DNA from: Leptolyngbya sp. SIOISBB
GTDB lineage: Bacteria > Cyanobacteriota > Cyanobacteriia > Phormidesmidales > Phormidesmidaceae
Reading direction: 5' to 3'
Length of the DNA stretch: 64,000 nucleotides
NCBI GenBank assembly: GCA_010671905.1
Contig: JAAHII010000001.1
Span: forward strand, 4,030,001-4,094,000
Numbering within the stretch: the stretch's first letter is position 1; every line of letters begins with the position of its first letter. A model generated the notes under the pieces. It did no database searches, was not told the DNA's origin, and worked only from the letters and a program-made list of their open reading frames with translations. Both the position numbers and the translations under genes were made by a program. Shown in pieces: positions 24,992-44,010 of this stretch.

Positions 24992-27058
24992 ATGCCTAAT
25001 TCCGATTCTGTTGTTGAGCTATTGTTGCAGGCAATTCCTCAACTGCGATCGCAACTCTTTTTCAAGACTTCGCTAACGGCTCTTTCCCACGCGATGGAAG
25101 ATCAGGTCCTCGCCGGGCTTGAGCAACCTTTAGTCGTTGCGAGTTTTCAGCAGGAGCGATTTTATCGACAAGAGGCCAGTCGCTATCAACGGATTGCTGA
25201 CATTAGTGACCAAGTCTACGTTCTGTCAGCGGCGGGTACGAGCTTTGATGATGCGGCCGAGCACTATGCCACCGTGACTTTTGAAGAAGAAGACGCGCTG
25301 AGTCAAGAATGGCACTTAGTGGTGATTGGCGAGAAATATAGTGCGTGCTTGATTTGCCGTGAGCGCGATTCGGTTATCAGTGTGGCGCCAGCCTCGACCC
25401 CAGGTGCCCCTGCCTTGGATCAAACGCGGCGCTTTGAAGGCATTTGGACTCAGGAGAGCATCATCTGCCATCAGGCCGCTAATTTGTTGTTAGATCGCAT
25501 CGCTGGGTATGATGCCGCCTTGGTGCCTAAAATCCGCGCCGCTAAGCAGCGCTATCAGCTGTTATCGATCACTACGGCAGCAGAGGTGGAGATTGGCCCT
25601 GGGGCGGATCCCTTTACCCAGCGCTTAGTGACCTATTTACAAGCAGGACAATACAAACTACTCAAGGCGTATCGTGCGATCGCGGTGAAAGAGCGGCGCG
25701 AACGCCTCGTCAATTCCATCACCTCAGCGATTCGGCGATCGCTGGATCCCGAGGAACTCTTTCAGATTACCGTCCAAGAATTGGGCTCAGCCTTAGACCT
25801 GTGTCGCTGTATTATTTATCGCTGCCATGCCGAGTGGCCCGATATCGAGATTCGTCATGAATTTCGACAGCCTCAAATGCCTTCTTTGTTAGGGGTCGAA
25901 TGGCCAATTGTTGATAACCCCCTGCTAGATCAGATCAAAGCCGAGCACGAGATGCTCGTGATTCCCGATACCCAGACCCCGCCGCAGGCTTTCGCGACCG
26001 CTCTGGATGCCGTCAATTATTTGATTGAGGAATGGCATATTCGCTCCTGGGCCTTGGTCCCTCTGGTCTATCAGCAACGGCTCCTCGGCATGATTGAACT
26101 GCATCACTGCCAGGACATGCCCTACCAATGGAGCGAAGACGATCTAGCGCTGGTCGAAGCCGTGGCGGCACAGCTCAGTGTGGCGATTATTCAGGCTGAT
26201 GCCTACGCGCATTTGCAAGATCTGAATCAGCAGCTAGAAGCGCTAGAGCGGACCCGCAGCAACTTGATTGCGATTACTGGACACGAGTTGCGCACGCCCT
26301 TGTCAACCATCCAAGTTTGTTTAGAAAGTCTGGCGACAGAACCCGATATGCCCGAGCAGTTACGGTCTACTATGCTCACTTCGGCGCTCGATGACGCCGA
26401 ACGCATGCGGAAACTGGTGCAAGATTTTCTCACGCTTTCACGCTTAGAAAGCGGTCGCATCGAATGGAACTTCGAAGCTTTATCCTTATCCGAATGCTTT
26501 GACTTGGCTCTCAGCAGTGTGCAGGCCCGTCAGGGTAATCAGCGCCTTGAGGTCGATATCAATGTGGAGCTCCCCCCCAAGCTGCCCATGGTCAGAGCAG
26601 ATGGCGAATGGGTGGTCGAGGTCATCGTGAAGTTGATGGATAATGCGTGCAAGTTCACTGATCCTGGCGATACCATCACCATTGCGGCCCAGCGCGTCGA
26701 TGAGAACATGATTCAAATTACGATCGCTGATTCGGGTCGAGGCATTGAGCCTTATCGGCTGGAAGCTGTGTTTGATCGCTTTTATCAAGAGGAAGGGGCA
26801 TTGCGTCGCACCACCGGGGGCACCGGGCTGGGCTTAGCCATGTGTCGTCAAATTGTTGAAGGGTTGGGCGGTCGCATTTGGGCGACTTCCAAAGGGAAGT
26901 CCCACGGTAGTCAGTTTCACTTTACGCTCCCCATTGCTGAAGGGCGGGCAGCTCTGCATGTGCGCCATGAACGAGGCAGCCTAGTGCTAGACGACGTCAA
27001 CGAAGACGACCTGTCTCTCAGTGAACTGGAGCGGCGCAATCCATACATCTTGGAATGA
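24992..27058 (+). CDS. DICT-GAF sensor histidine kinase
   Basis: This 688-residue soluble kinase has an N-terminal DICT-type sensory region (about 1-190; VVASFQQERFYRQEASRYQR, VYVLSAAG). A linker helix, then a GAF domain (about 235-405; SLDPEELFQITVQELGSALDL), then the transmitter follow. The H-box AITGHELRTPLSTIQ has its His at about residue 431. The N-box is LMDNACKFTD, and the G-boxes are DSGRGIEP and TGGTGLGLAMCR. DICT domains usually accompany light or second-messenger signalling proteins. No cognate regulator lies nearby. The C-terminal about 40 residues are charged and unassigned. Confidence 0.86.
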   Translation: MPNSDSVVELLLQAIPQLRSQLFFKTSLTALSHAMEDQVLAGLEQPLVVASFQQERFYRQEASRYQRIADISDQVYVLSAAGTSFDDAAEHYATVTFEEEDALSQEWHLVVIGEKYSACLICRERDSVISVAPASTPGAPALDQTRRFEGIWTQESIICHQAANLLLDRIAGYDAALVPKIRAAKQRYQLLSITTAAEVEIGPGADPFTQRLVTYLQAGQYKLLKAYRAIAVKERRERLVNSITSAIRRSLDPEELFQITVQELGSALDLCRCIIYRCHAEWPDIEIRHEFRQPQMPSLLGVEWPIVDNPLLDQIKAEHEMLVIPDTQTPPQAFATALDAVNYLIEEWHIRSWALVPLVYQQRLLGMIELHHCQDMPYQWSEDDLALVEAVAAQLSVAIIQADAYAHLQDLNQQLEALERTRSNLIAITGHELRTPLSTIQVCLESLATEPDMPEQLRSTMLTSALDDAERMRKLVQDFLTLSRLESGRIEWNFEALSLSECFDLALSSVQARQGNQRLEVDINVELPPKLPMVRADGEWVVEVIVKLMDNACKFTDPGDTITIAAQRVDENMIQITIADSGRGIEPYRLEAVFDRFYQEEGALRRTTGGTGLGLAMCRQIVEGLGGRIWATSKGKSHGSQFHFTLPIAEGRAALHVRHERGSLVLDDVNEDDLSLSELERRNPYILE

Positions 27059-35771: not shown

Positions 35772-38700
35772 ATGACGTGCGATCGCCCCTTTCATGATCA
35801 GGTACCAGCTTTGCTGCAGGCGATGGATTCGAGCGGGCGACTAACAGCCGTCACCGATCGCTGGCTGAGTTGGTTGGGCTATGAGCGATCGTCGGTGATG
35901 GGTCGTCCCTGGCGAGAGTTTTTGACCCCGACGGCGCAATTACAGCTGGCTGGCTTGACTGAACTTGACTGGGTCAACGATCCTCAAGCCGATCGGGTGT
36001 TGTCGTTTCGGACGGCACAAGGCGAGGTCGTTGAGGCTCACGTGGCAGTCAGTCTATTACAGGATGAGGCTGGACTGCCAACCACTTATCTCGTGAGCTT
36101 GAGGGAGGCACTATCCGTACATCAGCCTGCATGTGACCAAGCTCCCCAGGCAGCACAGCCAGTTTGCGAAAAGTGGTTTGAACTCATCACGGAAACGAGG
36201 CGGGATGTGTTTTGGATTCACGATGCTCAAACGCGGCGGCCAATTTACAACAGCCCCAATTTTGAGGCTGTTTGGGGCCTTAAACCAGAAGATTTGCAAC
36301 CGGACTTACAGACTCTCCTTGCTCGCATCCATCCGGATGACCGTGAAACCTTTGCCGCATCTGTGCGCGATCAGTACACCCAAACAGCCCAGTTTGAAAA
36401 CACCTTTCGGATCTGTCTCCCTAGTGGCGAGGTGCGCTGGCTCCAAGAACATTACTTTCCGCTGTTAGATGAGCAGGGGCGTCCGGCGAGACTTGTGGGA
36501 GTGACGTCAGATATTACTGAACAGCAACAGGCGTTGCTGGCTGTCGCACAGTCAGAAGAGAGATTTCAGCTATTAGCTCAAAATCTGCAAGACGTCTTTT
36601 GGTTGACCGATATGCAGACAGGGCGGAATTTGTATGTCAATTCAGCTTTTGAAACCTTATGGCAACTGCCACGATCCGCTTTAGCTGAAGACCCATTTGC
36701 CTTTTTGCAACGGGTACATCCTGACGATCTCGATCGTATCAGGGCAACCATACAAACCTGCATAGCAGAGACCCGTGACTTTGATGTGGAGTATCGGCTG
36801 CAACTGCCAGATGGCACGATGCGCTGGATTCGCGATCGCGGCTTCATGATTCTGGATGACATGGGGATGATGACCCAAATGGCTGGGATCGCCACGGATA
36901 TTACCACTCGAAAGCAAGACGAAGTCTATTTGCAGCAGTATGAGCGCACTATTGCGGCGATTCCGGATGCATTTTGTCTGATTGGTCAAGATTATCGCTA
37001 TCGGTTAAGCAATGCCGCTTATCAAGACTGGTTTCATCAGGGGCGTGATGTCTGCGGTATGCAGGTTGCCGATTGCTTTGGCGAAGACTTCTTTAACACG
37101 GTCTCTAAGCCTCGTTGTGACCAAGCTTTAGCAGGGCATACCCAATGCTTTGAAGAGTGGCTATATAACCCTCATCAAGAAACTGCCAAATTCATTAGCA
37201 TCACCTATGCTCCCTTATTACGAAGCCGATGGTCAAATTGGTGGCGTCATCCACTGTATTCGTGACTTGACGACCCTCAAGCAAACCCGCGATCGCCTCG
37301 ACCAAATGGCCAATCGCTTACAGTTACACATTCACAACTCACCGCTAGCCGTCATTGAGTGGACGCCTGCCCAGCAGGTTGATAACTGGTCATCACAAGC
37401 TGCGACTTTCTTTGGCTGGTTGGAGTCAGACGTGGTGGGGCGTCATGTGACTGACCTGCCCATCTTTCCCAATGACGCGAAGTCGCATTTGGCGGATCAC
37501 ATCCGTGAGCTGTTGCATAGTGCAGACCAGCAACAGATTGTGATTACCCGCAATGTCCACCGTGACGGCAGCGAGTTGTTCTGTGAGTGGTATAACTCAG
37601 TGCTTCGTGACGCCGCGGGAGAGGTCGTCTCGATCTTGTCGTTTGTGCAAAACATTACCGAGCGTCGGCAAGCTCAGCTGGCATTGCAAGCGAGCGAAGA
37701 GCGTTGGCAATTGGCCATTGTTGGCAGCAATGAAGGGATTTGGGATTGGCAAATTTCTGCAGATGAAGTGTTTTATTCGCCTCGTTGGAAAGACCAACTC
37801 GGCTATGCCGATGACGAACTCGAAAATTCGCGCGAAGTTTGGCTTTCCAGAGTTCATCCAGATGACCTCGCAAGAGTACAGACAACCATGCAGGCTCATT
37901 TGCAGGGGCAGGACCCAACCTATCAGTCAGAGTATCGTCTGCGCCATCGCTCTGGCGATTATGTCTGGATTTTATCGCGGGGGCAAGCCATCTTTAATGA
38001 GGCGGGTCAGCCCATCCGGTTTGTCGGCTCTCATGTGGATATTACCGATCGCAAGCAGGCTGAACTCGACTTGCAGGCATCGCAACAACTGTTGCAAATG
38101 GTGTTTGACCATTTGCCTCAGCGCGTTTTTTGGAAAGCTTTAGATGGTCGTTTTTTAGGCTGTAATCAGGCTTTTGCGGTGGATATGGGATGCCAGGCCC
38201 CGAGTGAAGTGATTGGTAGAAGTGATGCTGACCTACAAGTCTTGTCCCCTGAATCCTTACAACTCTTTCAAGCGCGTGACCGAGATGTGATTGCGGCTGA
38301 TCGGACCATCGCCGTAGAAGACCAGGCGCAACACTATCTCAATGGTCAAACTCGCTGGGTCTCCACAACTAAAGCGCCATTTCGGACACCGCAAGGCGAA
38401 TTACGAGGGATCTTTGGGTGCTATGAAGACGTGACGGAGCGCGTGTTAGCTCAGCGATCGCTGCAGCGATATGCCCGCATGGTTGCGGTAGCCCAAGACG
38501 GTATTTGTCTGACTGATGTCGACTACCGCTATCAAGTGATTAACCAAACCTATCGCGATTGGTATGGCCAGGCTGACCAGCCGATTTTGGGTCAGACGGT
38601 TGCCGATGTCTTAGGGCAAGTGACTTTTGATCAGCGGCTCAAACCGCTGATCGACCGCTGCTTACAAGGTGAAACGATTCACTATGAGCAGTGGTTTGAC

Positions 38701-41700
38701 TTTCCCCATCTGGGCCGCCGTTTTCGGAGCGTTACCCTCACGCCTTATTGCGAGGAAAATGGCGACATTACCGGTATCGTGACCAGCATTCGCGACCTGA
38801 CGGATCTCAAAGATAGTGAAGACCAACAGCAACAACTGCTCGAAATTATTGAAGCAACCTCTGACTTTGTGGGCATGGCTTTGCCGGATGGACAGGTGAC
38901 TTACCTGAATCCGGCATTTGAACGCTTGGTTGCAGAGAACATGTCGAGATCAAGGTTGGCCAATATTCGGAACTATCATCCACAATGGGCCATTCATAAA
39001 GTGTTGAATGAGGCGATTCCGGCTGCTATCGCTCAGGGCACTTGGCAGGGTGAGACCGCCTTGCTCAGTGCTGATGGTCAAGAAATTCCCATCGCGCAGA
39101 CCATTACTGCACATCGAGATGAGCACGGAGACGTCAGCATCTTATCGACGATCGCGCATGATCATCGTCCCCAAAAGCGCTTGGAGCAAGAACTCCGCGA
39201 TCGCCTGGAGTTTGAACGGTTGCTGAGTCGCCTCTCGACCGAGTTTGTGAATTTGCCGAGTGCGGACTTGCTCACGGGCATTACCCAAGCCTTACAAAGG
39301 ATTGCTGCCGCAATTGGGGCGCAGCGCAGTTATGTCTATTTGCTGTCAGCTGATCGGCAGCAGAGTGAGCTGTATAGTCAATGGCACGAGGGGGCGCTTG
39401 CTCCCATCCCGGCAGCATGGCGTATCGTCCCGGTCGAGTACTTTACGTGGTGGATCTCACAGCTTAGGCAGCATCAGGTGATTACGCTGGCTGATGTTGC
39501 CCAAATGCCTGCGACAGCGGAGAACGAACGCTTAGCTATGGCGGCTTTCGAGATGCGATCGCTGGCCTTGGTCCCGATGCATCACAGTCAACAACTGATC
39601 GGTTACGTTGGCTTCGCGGCGGCTCTGGTCAAAGCTTGGACCGAGCATGAGATTGCCTTACTGCAAATCGTGGGTGATCTATTTGCCAACGCTTACCAAC
39701 GGCAACGGGTAGAAGCGGCTCTCCGACAGCAAGAACACTATTATCGCAGCCTGACCGAAAATGCTTCTGATCTGGTGATGTTGTTGGATCATCGCGGGCG
39801 AGTGCAATACGTCACGCCATCGATTACCCGATTGCTCAATTACCGACCAGACGAAGTCCAAAATCGCTCAGTGATGCGACTGACGGTACCGGCAGATTGG
39901 CCGTCGCTGGCGCACTTATGGGAGGCCGTACTACACCATCCAGGGATGCCGCAACCCGTCTTGCAGTGCCGGGTGCGGCACAAAACAGCGGCGCAGTGGC
40001 GCTACTTTGAAGTGGTTGCCACCAGCCTACTCAATGATCCAGTCATCCAGGGCGTCGTGGTGAACTGTCGTGATGTCAGCGATCGCGTCGCTGCTGAAGC
40101 GGCTCAACGTCACAGTGAGCAGGTCTTTCAAGCGATTTTTGAGCAATCTGCGGTTGGGATGGCGCAGCTGGCATTCGACGGGACTTACATCAAAGTGAAT
40201 CCGGCTTTTTGTCAATTGGTCGGCTATCGCGCTGATGAACTCATCGGCGAACACTTTGCCAAAATTACCCACCCTGACGATCTAGAATACGACCAGCGCA
40301 TGAGCGCTGCTGTCGCTCGGGGAGAGGTTTCATCACAAACCATTGATATTCGGCTCGTTTGTGCCGACGACTCAGTGCGTCATGTACAGGTCGTGATGAC
40401 GGCTGTGCAGCATGACCAAGGTCGCCCCGCTTTTTGGGCGTCTGTTTACAATGACATGACCGAGCAATTGCTGGCTGAGCGATCGCTCCGTAGCATTATT
40501 GAGGGCACGGCCTCTGTCACGGGAGCCGCCTTTTTTCCGGTATTAGCTGAGCGACTAGCCAACACCCTTGATGTTGATCATGTGTTCATAAATCAGCTCA
40601 ATGATGATGCGACTCTCACAACCATTGTCCTTTGGAGTCAAAATCAAGAGCAAGAGGCACTGACTTATGAACCGGCCAATACCCCTTGCGAACTGACCCT
40701 CAGACAAGGGTTTTACTGCTGCCCCCGAGCTGTACAGGCCACGTTTCCGAATGATATAGACCTGCAAGTGTTGAATGCCGAAAGCTATATTGGAGCGGCT
40801 CTCAGAGACTCCCAAGGAAACTTACTAGGCGAAATCTGCGCGATCCACAGCCAAGCCATCCATATTGTCGATAATGCTGCAACGCTGCTGCGCATTTTTG
40901 CCGCTCGGGCTAGTGCTGAGTTAGACCGCCAACGGGCTGATTTAGCCCTCCAAGCAACTGAGGCCAACTGGCGTAAGATTCTGGAAAATATGCCGGTACT
41001 GCTAAATGCGGTCGATGAAAAAGGCCTATTTACCCTCTGGAACCAAGAATGTGAGCGGGTCACCGGTTACCGTGCCGACGAGATGGTTGGTAATCCTGCA
41101 GCCTTGAATCGTCTATACCCTGATCCTGATTACCGGCAGATGATGCTGACACGCTGGCAGCAACGGGGCTACAACTATCGCGATTGGGAATGGGAACTCA
41201 CTTGCAAAGACGGCAGTCAGCGCATTATTGCGTGGTCTAACGTTTCCGATCAGTTCCCGATTGCTGATGTAGGGGCTTGGGGCATTGGTGTTGATGTGAC
41301 CGATCGCCGTCATGCTGAAGATGCTCTACGCCAAAGTGAAGACCGCTTTCAACGGTTGGCGGCTAACATGCCAAGCGTGATTTATCGCTATCACCAATAT
41401 CCCGATGGGCGCGATCATTTTAGCTATCTCAGCCCTGGTAGTGTTGACCTCTGGGAGTATGAGCCTGAGGTGATTTATGCAGATGCAGCCCGAGCTTGGG
41501 AACTCATTCATCCTGACGATTTAGCCGCATTTAAGCAGTCCATTGCTGTCGCGATTACGCAAGAAGTGACTTGGTTGCATGAGCACCGCATTATTACGCC
41601 ATCGGGTTGCGTAAAATGGATCCAAGCAGTGGCGAAAGGAGAGCGCCAATCAGATGGCAGCTACGCTTGGGATGGTGTCTTAATTGATGTGACTCCCCTC

Positions 41701-44010
41701 AAGCAGGCCGAAGCCGAACTCAGTGCCAGTGAAGCTCGATTTCAGCGGCTGGCCCACAATACCCCCGGGATTATCTATCGCTATCATCTCGATGCTGATG
41801 GGCGCGATCGCTTCAGCTATCTCAGTGCTGCTTGTAGAGATTTGTGGGAGCTTGAGCCAGTCGCCGCTATGGGGGATAGTACTACCTTCTGGAAGTTACT
41901 CAATCCCGATGATTACGCTCGGGTGCAAATAGCACTGCGGCACTCTGCTCAAACCCTGACTCCATTTTCAGAAGATTACCGCATCACTACTGCATCGGGT
42001 CGGCAAAAGTGGTTGAGAGTCGTGGCGCGGCCAGAGCAAGAATCCAGCGGCGGCTATTTTTGGGATGGCTTAGTGGTGGATGTCACTGAGCAAATCGCGA
42101 CCCAAACCGCTTTACAACAAAGCGAGATGCTGAACCGAGCCATTTTAGAGGCTCTGCCTGATTTGATGATCCGGATGCAGCGAGATGGCCTGTGCCTGGA
42201 TATGAAATATCCCAGCCACTTTCCAGTCGTTTGTCCTGAGGGCTTGCACGTTGGCGGCTGGTTACCAGACACCTGGTCAGCCTCTGTTACGGCTCAATGT
42301 CTGCAAGCAATAGAGCAAGCCTTATCCATGGGAGAGATTCAAATCTACGAATACGAGTTACCGATTGATGGGACACTGCGCTGGGCAGAAGCCAGGGTCG
42401 TGCCGATGACCCCCGACGAGGTGTTGATATTAGTGCGTGACATTGATGATCGCAAACGCACTGAGGCTGCCTTGCAACGCAGCGAAGCCCTCAATCAAGC
42501 GATTATTGATGCCCTGCCAGATCTGCTCATTCGGATGAATCGCGAGGGTGACAGTCTGGGTGTACACCTACCCAGCCAGTTTCCGGTGCTGTTGCCCAGC
42601 GATGAAACGATTAGCTACAACATGCGCGATGTTCTACCCACCGAGCTGGCTGAAAACCGCCTGGCCGGTGCGGCGAGGGCGATCGCTACCCAACAAACTC
42701 AGATCTGTGAATATCAAATTCTCATCAACGGCCAGACACGCTGGGAAGAGTCTCGGATCGTACCGCTGACCCAAGAAGAAGTTCTGGTCCTGATCCGAGA
42801 TATCGATGAGCGTCGCCGCGCTGAAGAAGAAGTGCGACGCCTCAATCAAGTGTTAGAAGACCACAACCAACGGTTGGAAGAATTAGTCGAATTGCGGACT
42901 GCCGAACTTGTCACATTCATGAATTCGCTACCGGATCAAATCTTTGTGATCGATCGCTCTCAAAACGTGACGTTTGGCAATCAGGTCGCTGCCGAGTTTG
43001 CTCAACTTTCTTGCCCTCAGGAATTTAAAGGTAGAAGCAATTACACCCTTTTTCCCAAAGACCAGGCAAATATTTATGCACAACAGAACCAACAAGTATT
43101 TCAGACAGGCGAAATTTTACATGTAGAAGAGGCCTTTCAAACCGCTGAAGGTCAGGTTTTTCTGGATACTTACAAAATTCCGCTTAAACGATCTGATGGA
43201 GAGGTTTACGCTCTCATTGGGACCTCCCGAGACATCACTGAACTGGTCGAAACGCGCCAAGCACTCGAACAACAAGCGACTCAATTGGCGGCGGCCAACC
43301 AAGAACTGCAGTCTTTCTCCTATTCGGTTTCCCACGACCTGAGAGCGCCTCTCCGGCATATTAACGGCTTTATTGCTGCCCTCAAACAGCGCTTTGAGAT
43401 GACAACGCCAGATCCTGATGTCAAGATGGCTCACTACATTGACGTGATTGAAAAAAGCAGCCAAAAGATGGGCTTGCTCATCGATGGCTTGTTGACGCTC
43501 TCGCGGGTGGGGCGTCGGGAAATGCATTGGCGTTCAGTGCCTTTAGGCCCATTGGCCAATCAGGCGATTGCGTTATTGACTGAAGTGCCTGACACTCCCT
43601 TGGAGCAACTGCAAATCATGGTAGATAACTTGCCGACGGTGCAGGGAGATGCCGCTTTGCTACAACAGGTGTTTAGCAACCTGCTTGGGAATGCGGTGAA
43701 ATTTAGCCGCGATCGCACGCCTGCCATTATTCATATTGGACAGCGAGCTGATGGGACTTGCTTTGTGCGGGATAATGGCGTCGGGTTTGATATGGCCTAT
43801 GCCGACAAACTTTTTAGTCCTTTCCAGCGGTTGCACAAGTCGGACAAATTTCAGGGGACTGGCATCGGATTAGCCATTGTGAGTCGCATTATTCATCGTC
43901 ATAATGGCCAGATCTGGGCTGAGAGTGAGCCCAATCGCGGTACGGCGATCTACTTCTCGCTGCCGCTAGAGCCGGTGTCGTCATCCACCAAAGAGGACAG
44001 TCAGGATTAA
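35772..44010 (+). pseudogene. Giant multi-PAS/GAF histidine kinase, split by one frameshift
   Basis: Two frames (35772-37265 and 37150-44010) make one gene of about 2745 residues if one C is dropped from CCC at 37212-37214. ISITYAP then joins YYEADGQIGGVIHC, finishing a PAS domain. I count about 17 PAS domains, many ending in DITxRKQAE-type linkers, with a GAF-like domain near the middle and another two PAS repeats later. Two near-identical PAS units (EALPDLMIRMQRDG and DALPDLLIRMNREG) precede a coiled coil and the kinase. The H-box SVSHDLRAPLRHING has His about 2521. The N-box (NLLGNAVKFSRD) and G-boxes (VRDNGVGFD, GTGIGLAI) are intact. No transmembrane helix is visible, so it is probably cytosolic. 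No response regulator adjoins it. Confidence 0.9.

Follow-up and report, generated by a model that had tools for sequence, protein, structure and literature searches.

Does the locus at positions 35772 to 44010 of a 64,000-nucleotide stretch of the Leptolyngbya sp. SIOISBB genome (hereafter the window) encode one giant sensor kinase, and if it does, what might such a protein sense and to which regulator might it signal? The locus comprises two overlapping frames on the + strand, one of 497 residues (35772-37265) and one of 2286 residues (37150-44010), which the initial annotation had joined into one protein of about 2745 residues with 17 PAS domains, two GAF domains and a single kinase. That layout is borne out by a PAS profile, by Pfam and by a search for orthologs of the same architecture, which found in a genome of the same genus (G001) an uninterrupted 2746-codon frame with exactly 17 PAS domains and the same two GAF-sized gaps. 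As this same-layout ortholog exists, the giant kinase is real, and it is interrupted in the present assembly through mutation or assembly error.

The PAS profile detects 17 domains across the two window frames, four in the first (the fourth truncated) and, in the second, thirteen plus the rest of PAS4, which is common to both. All PAS counts given here derive from this profile, which was built on loci of the present analysis and gave no match in 3 of the 25 proteins scanned. In the domain parsing by hidden Markov models that the annotation had proposed as a check, every one of the 17 segments, scanned singly, matches a Pfam PAS family at E<=0.01, and 15 of them reach a gathering score, with PAS9 and PAS15 slightly below it. 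GAF domains are positioned after PAS9 and after PAS11. The first is clear in the Pfam scan of the window segment; the second passes as a second GAF stretch in the whole-protein scan and falls short as an isolated window segment, and the orthologous segment passes the cut-off in five of six relatives tested. The array leads into a single HisKA-HATPase_c kinase that is clear by Pfam and carries the phospho-acceptor histidine and the N, G1 and G2 boxes of a sensor histidine kinase, with the motifs SHDLR, NAVKFS, DNGVG and GTGIGL all present. No membrane helix is evident by hydropathy (no dedicated predictor was run), since in the two frames the 19-residue Kyte-Doolittle means peak at only 0.82 and 1.32, and the protein is apparently soluble, as had been proposed.

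Single long frames are found in seven relatives; in the window the gene is split into two. Aligned to the window, the G001 kinase protein falls in two frames with their junction near 37210, and DNA alignment places the window one base off from G001, G003 and G002 at the same position within PAS4; G005 lacks PAS4. Because all three relatives aligned there read straight through, the break is, on these alignments, not ancestral, and the joined reading is the ancestral protein. The strain may not make the full-length kinase, since the gene is interrupted in PAS4 in the assembly. It is conceivable, if rather improbable, that the break is real and the gene is decaying, so that, on the way to loss, the cell would make only a 497-residue fragment with PAS1-4, perhaps alongside a shorter, internally started kinase. 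The departure from G001, G003 and G002 is a single base at one place, and the assembly does not appear error-ridden here, since 14 other G001 frames of at least 300 codons match the window in one frame. Among the 15 such frames that match the window, one of them an antisense shadow and some matching only in part, the kinase alone matches in two frames; a short 123-codon G001 frame likewise does so. Set against decay, the frame remains open over the remaining ~2266 codons, and the genome has another giant PAS gene (L046) with a break of this kind, a single base at a run of G dividing it into 825 and 1690 codons, while its G001 ortholog is intact in one frame of 2943 codons. This suggests residual assembly errors; alternatively, both could be true breaks. 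Purifying selection relative to G001 is seen over 2266 aligned codons, with a nonsynonymous rate (dN) of 0.21 and a synonymous rate (dS) of 3.4, which is saturated. Programmed frameshifting, whereby the full protein would be produced from both frames, would agree with the frame overlap and the one-base shift; it is highly improbable and was rejected, as the three relatives aligned at the site need no shift.

Along the array, all on the + strand, the N-terminal frame, whose start MTCDRPFHDQVPALLQA is common to the window, G001 and G005, holds PAS1 (35784-36125), the duplicated pair PAS2 and PAS3 (36165-36923) and most of PAS4 (36930-37290), which is divided between the frames. The PAS1 type is present in all eight genomes, the window counted, in which the N-terminal end is covered; G002 lacks that end. 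The C-terminal frame continues with the end of PAS4, then PAS5 (37306-37677), PAS6 (37693-38064), PAS7 (38080-38454, of PAS_4 type), PAS8 (38458-38820, of the same type as PAS4), PAS9 (38824-39186), GAF1 (39187-39729), PAS10 (39730-40098), PAS11 (40114-40479), GAF2 (40480-40956) and PAS12 (40957-41319). There follow the duplicated pairs PAS13 and PAS14 (41335-42105) and PAS15 and PAS16 (42121-42825), to which the paired units annotated at about 41340-42080 and 42120-42820 correspond, then PAS17 (42895-43257), which adjoins the kinase here as it does across the family, and the kinase core itself (43258-44007), whose best solved relative is 8f71 and whose phospho-acceptor histidine is assigned to 43333-43335 from the SHDLR motif.

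The kinase is present in nine of 63 family genomes and in four of 14 genera; an order-level search covered the same 63 genomes. On the same kinase end, the orthologs carry 8 to 17 PAS domains: 17 in the window and in G001, 16 in G003, 14 in G015, 13 in G005, 11 in G012, 10 in G004 and 8 in G011. The G002 gene, split over two contigs and missing its N-terminus, shows 17 (15 and 3 matches, one domain being read as present on both contigs). A wider search with a 554-residue C-terminal query at E<=1e-110 matched 28 of 388 genomes drawn from the class, nine of which are the family's own. The other 19 genomes contain 20 places at 44-54% identity, whose open frames span 467-1297 codons. At all 18 of these that were fetched (all except G348 and G175), a PAS17-type domain is the last before the kinase, and the total is 2-7 PAS domains in 540-1297 codons; the type profiles used were derived from the same family rows, so that their within-family scores hold by construction. 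Because all 18 share the PAS17-type domain and kinase with just 2-7 PAS domains, the giant array looks like a lineage-restricted growth ahead of a widespread kinase end.

In a tree built from 122 PAS domains, 13 types are resolved, all of which are covered by the 17 window domains, and the order of types is largely conserved across the orthologs. Growth by internal duplication, as the initial annotation suggested, stands in part: four types occur twice in the window array (2/3, 4/8, 13/14 and 15/16, with support of 0.81, 0.995, 0.999 and 1.0, the forks inside 15/16 and 2/3 being weak), but each of the other nine domains is the only one of its type, and deletion has left its trace as well. Distinct PAS13 copies occur only in the window, G001, G005, G003 and G002, and an additional PAS11-type domain lies near the N-terminus in G003 and, where covered, in G002. 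The deletion is found in G005, which has lost PAS3-6 in frame. At the joint, the PAS2 body matches PAS2 of G001, but where the DNA encodes the closing Asp-Ile-Thr the match changes to PAS6 and continues as such; read from the sequence, the joint is an in-frame swap of one domain's linker for another's. The kinase tree, in which two outgroup rows are unreliable long branches, pairs G005 with G001 as its sister (92/92, not starred). Leaving out G002, the gaps between neighbouring PAS matches measure 5 residues in 48 of 98 pairs, 1 residue in 15 and 23 residues in 8, and 13 of the 98 gaps contain a GAF domain. We put forward tentatively, as somewhat short of an even chance, that the array is modular and evolving, with duplication adding whole PAS modules and in-frame recombination at the conserved domain-end motif removing them, while the kinase, PAS17 and GGDEF-EAL output stay fixed. 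If this were true, the number of sensors would be a freely evolving trait, with up to 17 modules summed through a rod of ~2000 residues.

Comparison with solved structures placed single domains in the PAS fold without naming a ligand. PAS6 resembles 3mr0, its closest solved PAS domain, and its match to FixL (8js5) runs via the first PAS domain of that structure (38 bits) and barely via the second (2.5 bits). PAS7 is nearest to the PAS domains of VqmA and BvgS in sequence and fold, which again names no ligand, and PAS8 has weak solved relatives only. In a model of PAS7-9 (predicted local distance difference test score, pLDDT, 84.5; predicted template modelling score, pTM, 0.43), a helix connects each domain to the next, and the relative placement of the domains is unsure because of the pTM value; the matches returned for this model by Foldseek and VIA-align are PAS proteins of many functions. 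Light, which the annotation had offered among the possible cues, was not shown, nor were haem and flavin, whose binding residues it had proposed to look for. Neither frame contains a match to the NCRF-type flavin-binding cysteine motif of LOV domains or to the bilin-binding GAF motifs DxCF and PRVxLDL; one loose C-N-x-x-F match sits in PAS7, outside any GAF domain. Photoreceptor readings (LOV, cyanobacteriochrome, phytochrome) were therefore rejected for want of a fitting motif match.

The annotation noted the lack of an adjacent regulator, and this was upheld for the window, where neither neighbour of the kinase, an Lhr-type DEAD helicase and a threonine dehydratase, contains a receiver domain at E<=1e-6. 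Candidate partners emerge from the relatives. In G015, the strand of the kinase carries, directly after it, a 158-codon receiver frame and next a REC-GAF-GGDEF-EAL gene. The window genome has an ortholog of this receiver (G000:C1:7649438-7649869) followed by a REC-GAF-GGDEF-EAL gene (G000:C1:7647009-7649405), 3.6 Mb from the kinase on the contig map, and the two form a probable regulator pair unlinked to it. At E<=1e-38 the receiver is found in seven of the nine kinase genomes and in none of the 54 others, or in eight of nine if a contig-edge fragment in G004 (63% over 75 residues) is counted. The REC-GAF-GGDEF-EAL ortholog is present in all nine (59-100% identity), with 3 of the 54 others at 47-55%. 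By chance, the receiver pattern would arise with a probability of 6.5e-8 when counted by genome, a figure that takes no account of shared descent, and of 0.011 when counted by genus (3/3 within 4/14, hypergeometric). Furthermore, a receiver 58-64% identical to that of G015 adjoins the kinase at 10 of the 18 outside places, directly downstream in nine and divergently oriented in one (L086). In the receiver tree, the family receivers group together (0.98) and join the outside kinase-adjacent receivers (0.82).

In PAS kinases generally, the linked PAS domains of a dimer transmit rotation or bending through helices to the helix bundle of the kinase. The reading that we favour, and regard as reasonably probable, is that of a giant soluble multi-PAS/GAF histidine kinase in which the PAS and GAF domains, joined by mostly short linkers of fixed length, would act as a long relay along a presumed dimer, a view that fits because the linkers are mostly fixed in length. 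Small-molecule or redox states in some of the pockets could shift the helix entering the kinase, upon which the histidine would be phosphorylated. Judging from genomic context, the phosphoryl group would most likely pass to the unlinked Rcp1-like receiver and/or to the adjoining REC-GAF-GGDEF-EAL protein, and from this transfer a change in cyclic-di-GMP would follow as the output.

Several observations weigh against this proposal and bear on two rivals. On the input side, the LOV and bilin searches of both frames yielded no ligand motif, and an 891-residue C-terminal model was too poor to use (pLDDT 57). The array could instead be mainly structural, most PAS domains being ligand-free spacers for length, dimerisation or docking and a few of them sensing. 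The absence of LOV and bilin motifs agrees with this, as do the span of 8-17 PAS domains on the same kinase end and the loss of four domains with the frame kept in G005. We nonetheless consider a structural array unlikely, as corresponding positions in three other genera keep recognisable domain types (30-72% identity to G001 in G015, G012 and G011), with PAS8 and PAS17 near 70%, which argues for selection on single domains. In the distant relatives G015, G004 and G011 no other domain is as close to G001 as PAS8 (69, 73 and 69%), which G012 lacks. On the output side, the receiver adjoins the kinase in just one of the nine family genomes (G015) and is unlinked in the window genome, G011 has the kinase and no receiver above 48% identity, and the co-occurrence is not independent because six of the nine kinase genomes belong to one genus. 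The second receiver gene also varies outside the family: at the 12 of the 18 outside places where longer stretches were examined, it is REC-GGDEF-EAL at four, a REC-kinase at seven and absent at one, with L086 a fifth REC-GGDEF-EAL place and L094, by eye, an eighth REC-kinase place. The kinase might instead signal to another orphan receiver, with the GGDEF-EAL pair served by a different kinase. The rarity of adjacency, the retention of the kinase without the small receiver in G011 and the 170 further PAS or kinase matches in the genome favour this; the co-inheritance of the partner genes and the adjacency in G015 speak against it, and we judge it doubtful.

Other genes around the locus and elsewhere in the genome were also recorded. 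The order helicase-kinase-threonine dehydratase is found in the window and G001, unlike in G012, G011 and G015, where a penicillin-binding-protein gene with an FHA domain precedes the giant kinase (L040:2630-4906:+, L041:3329-5590:+ and L039:15509-16855:-, respectively), a call made by Pfam for G012 and by sequence likeness for G011 and G015. A further, separate kinase in the window (24992-27058, +) combines the domains DICT, CHASE6_C, GAF, HisKA and HATPase_c. The split giant PAS kinase gene L046 lies at L046:2-7530:+ (G000:C1 about 1.998-2.006 Mb), and another giant gene, L044:3744-11915:+ (G000:C1 about 2.034-2.042 Mb), has 2724 codons in one frame and 11 PAS domains by profile. At L045:2372-11624:- (G000:C1 about 1.158-1.168 Mb), a frame of 1395 codons with 10 PAS matches overlaps one of 1736 codons with 8, and the two meet inside a PAS domain; this may be a third interrupted giant gene, and no full-length ortholog of it was found in the genus.

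To our knowledge, how a kinase reads many stacked sensors, and whether each domain of a long array senses anything, are open questions. The family comprises nine genomes that share one kinase end and have 8-17 PAS modules whose order is largely conserved, with a clean four-module deletion in one of them, and since these are natural variants of array length, the multi-sensor question can be tested by comparing them. The predicted pair of receiver and GGDEF-EAL protein offers an output assay that is otherwise missing for an orphan kinase. A literature search, whose coverage of subscription journals was thin, found no paper on this kinase family.

Among known systems, Cph1-Rcp1 pairs a kinase with a small stand-alone receiver. 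The present family would likewise pair its kinase core with such a receiver, encoded next to the kinase at 10 of the 18 outside places and in G015, but the window protein has no phytochrome or cyanobacteriochrome motif, and in the window genome the putative partner is unlinked. The likeness of PAS7 to the PAS domains of VqmA (6ugl) and BvgS (6zj8) is limited to one domain, at about 21-27% identity in structural alignments, and implies no ligand. The shorter cyanobacterial PAS kinases at the 20 outside places share the PAS17-type domain and kinase core (18 of 18 fetched) and carry 2-7 PAS domains in 540-1297 codons, versus 8-17 in the window family. The description of the locus as among the largest histidine kinases was overstated, and that of the largest such kinase was rejected, given the 2943-codon PAS kinase frame in a genome of the same genus and the published cyanobacterial histidine kinases with up to 19 PAS domains (PMC10468136). 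The Aulosira tenue protein described there (UniProt A0A1Z4MZL8) is likewise a cyanobacterial histidine kinase whose PAS array is very long, with 19 domains versus 17 here, as compared by published description. Very long cyanobacterial PAS kinases are already known, and what is new is the ortholog series of 8-17 modules, the mapped module deletion and the predicted output pair.

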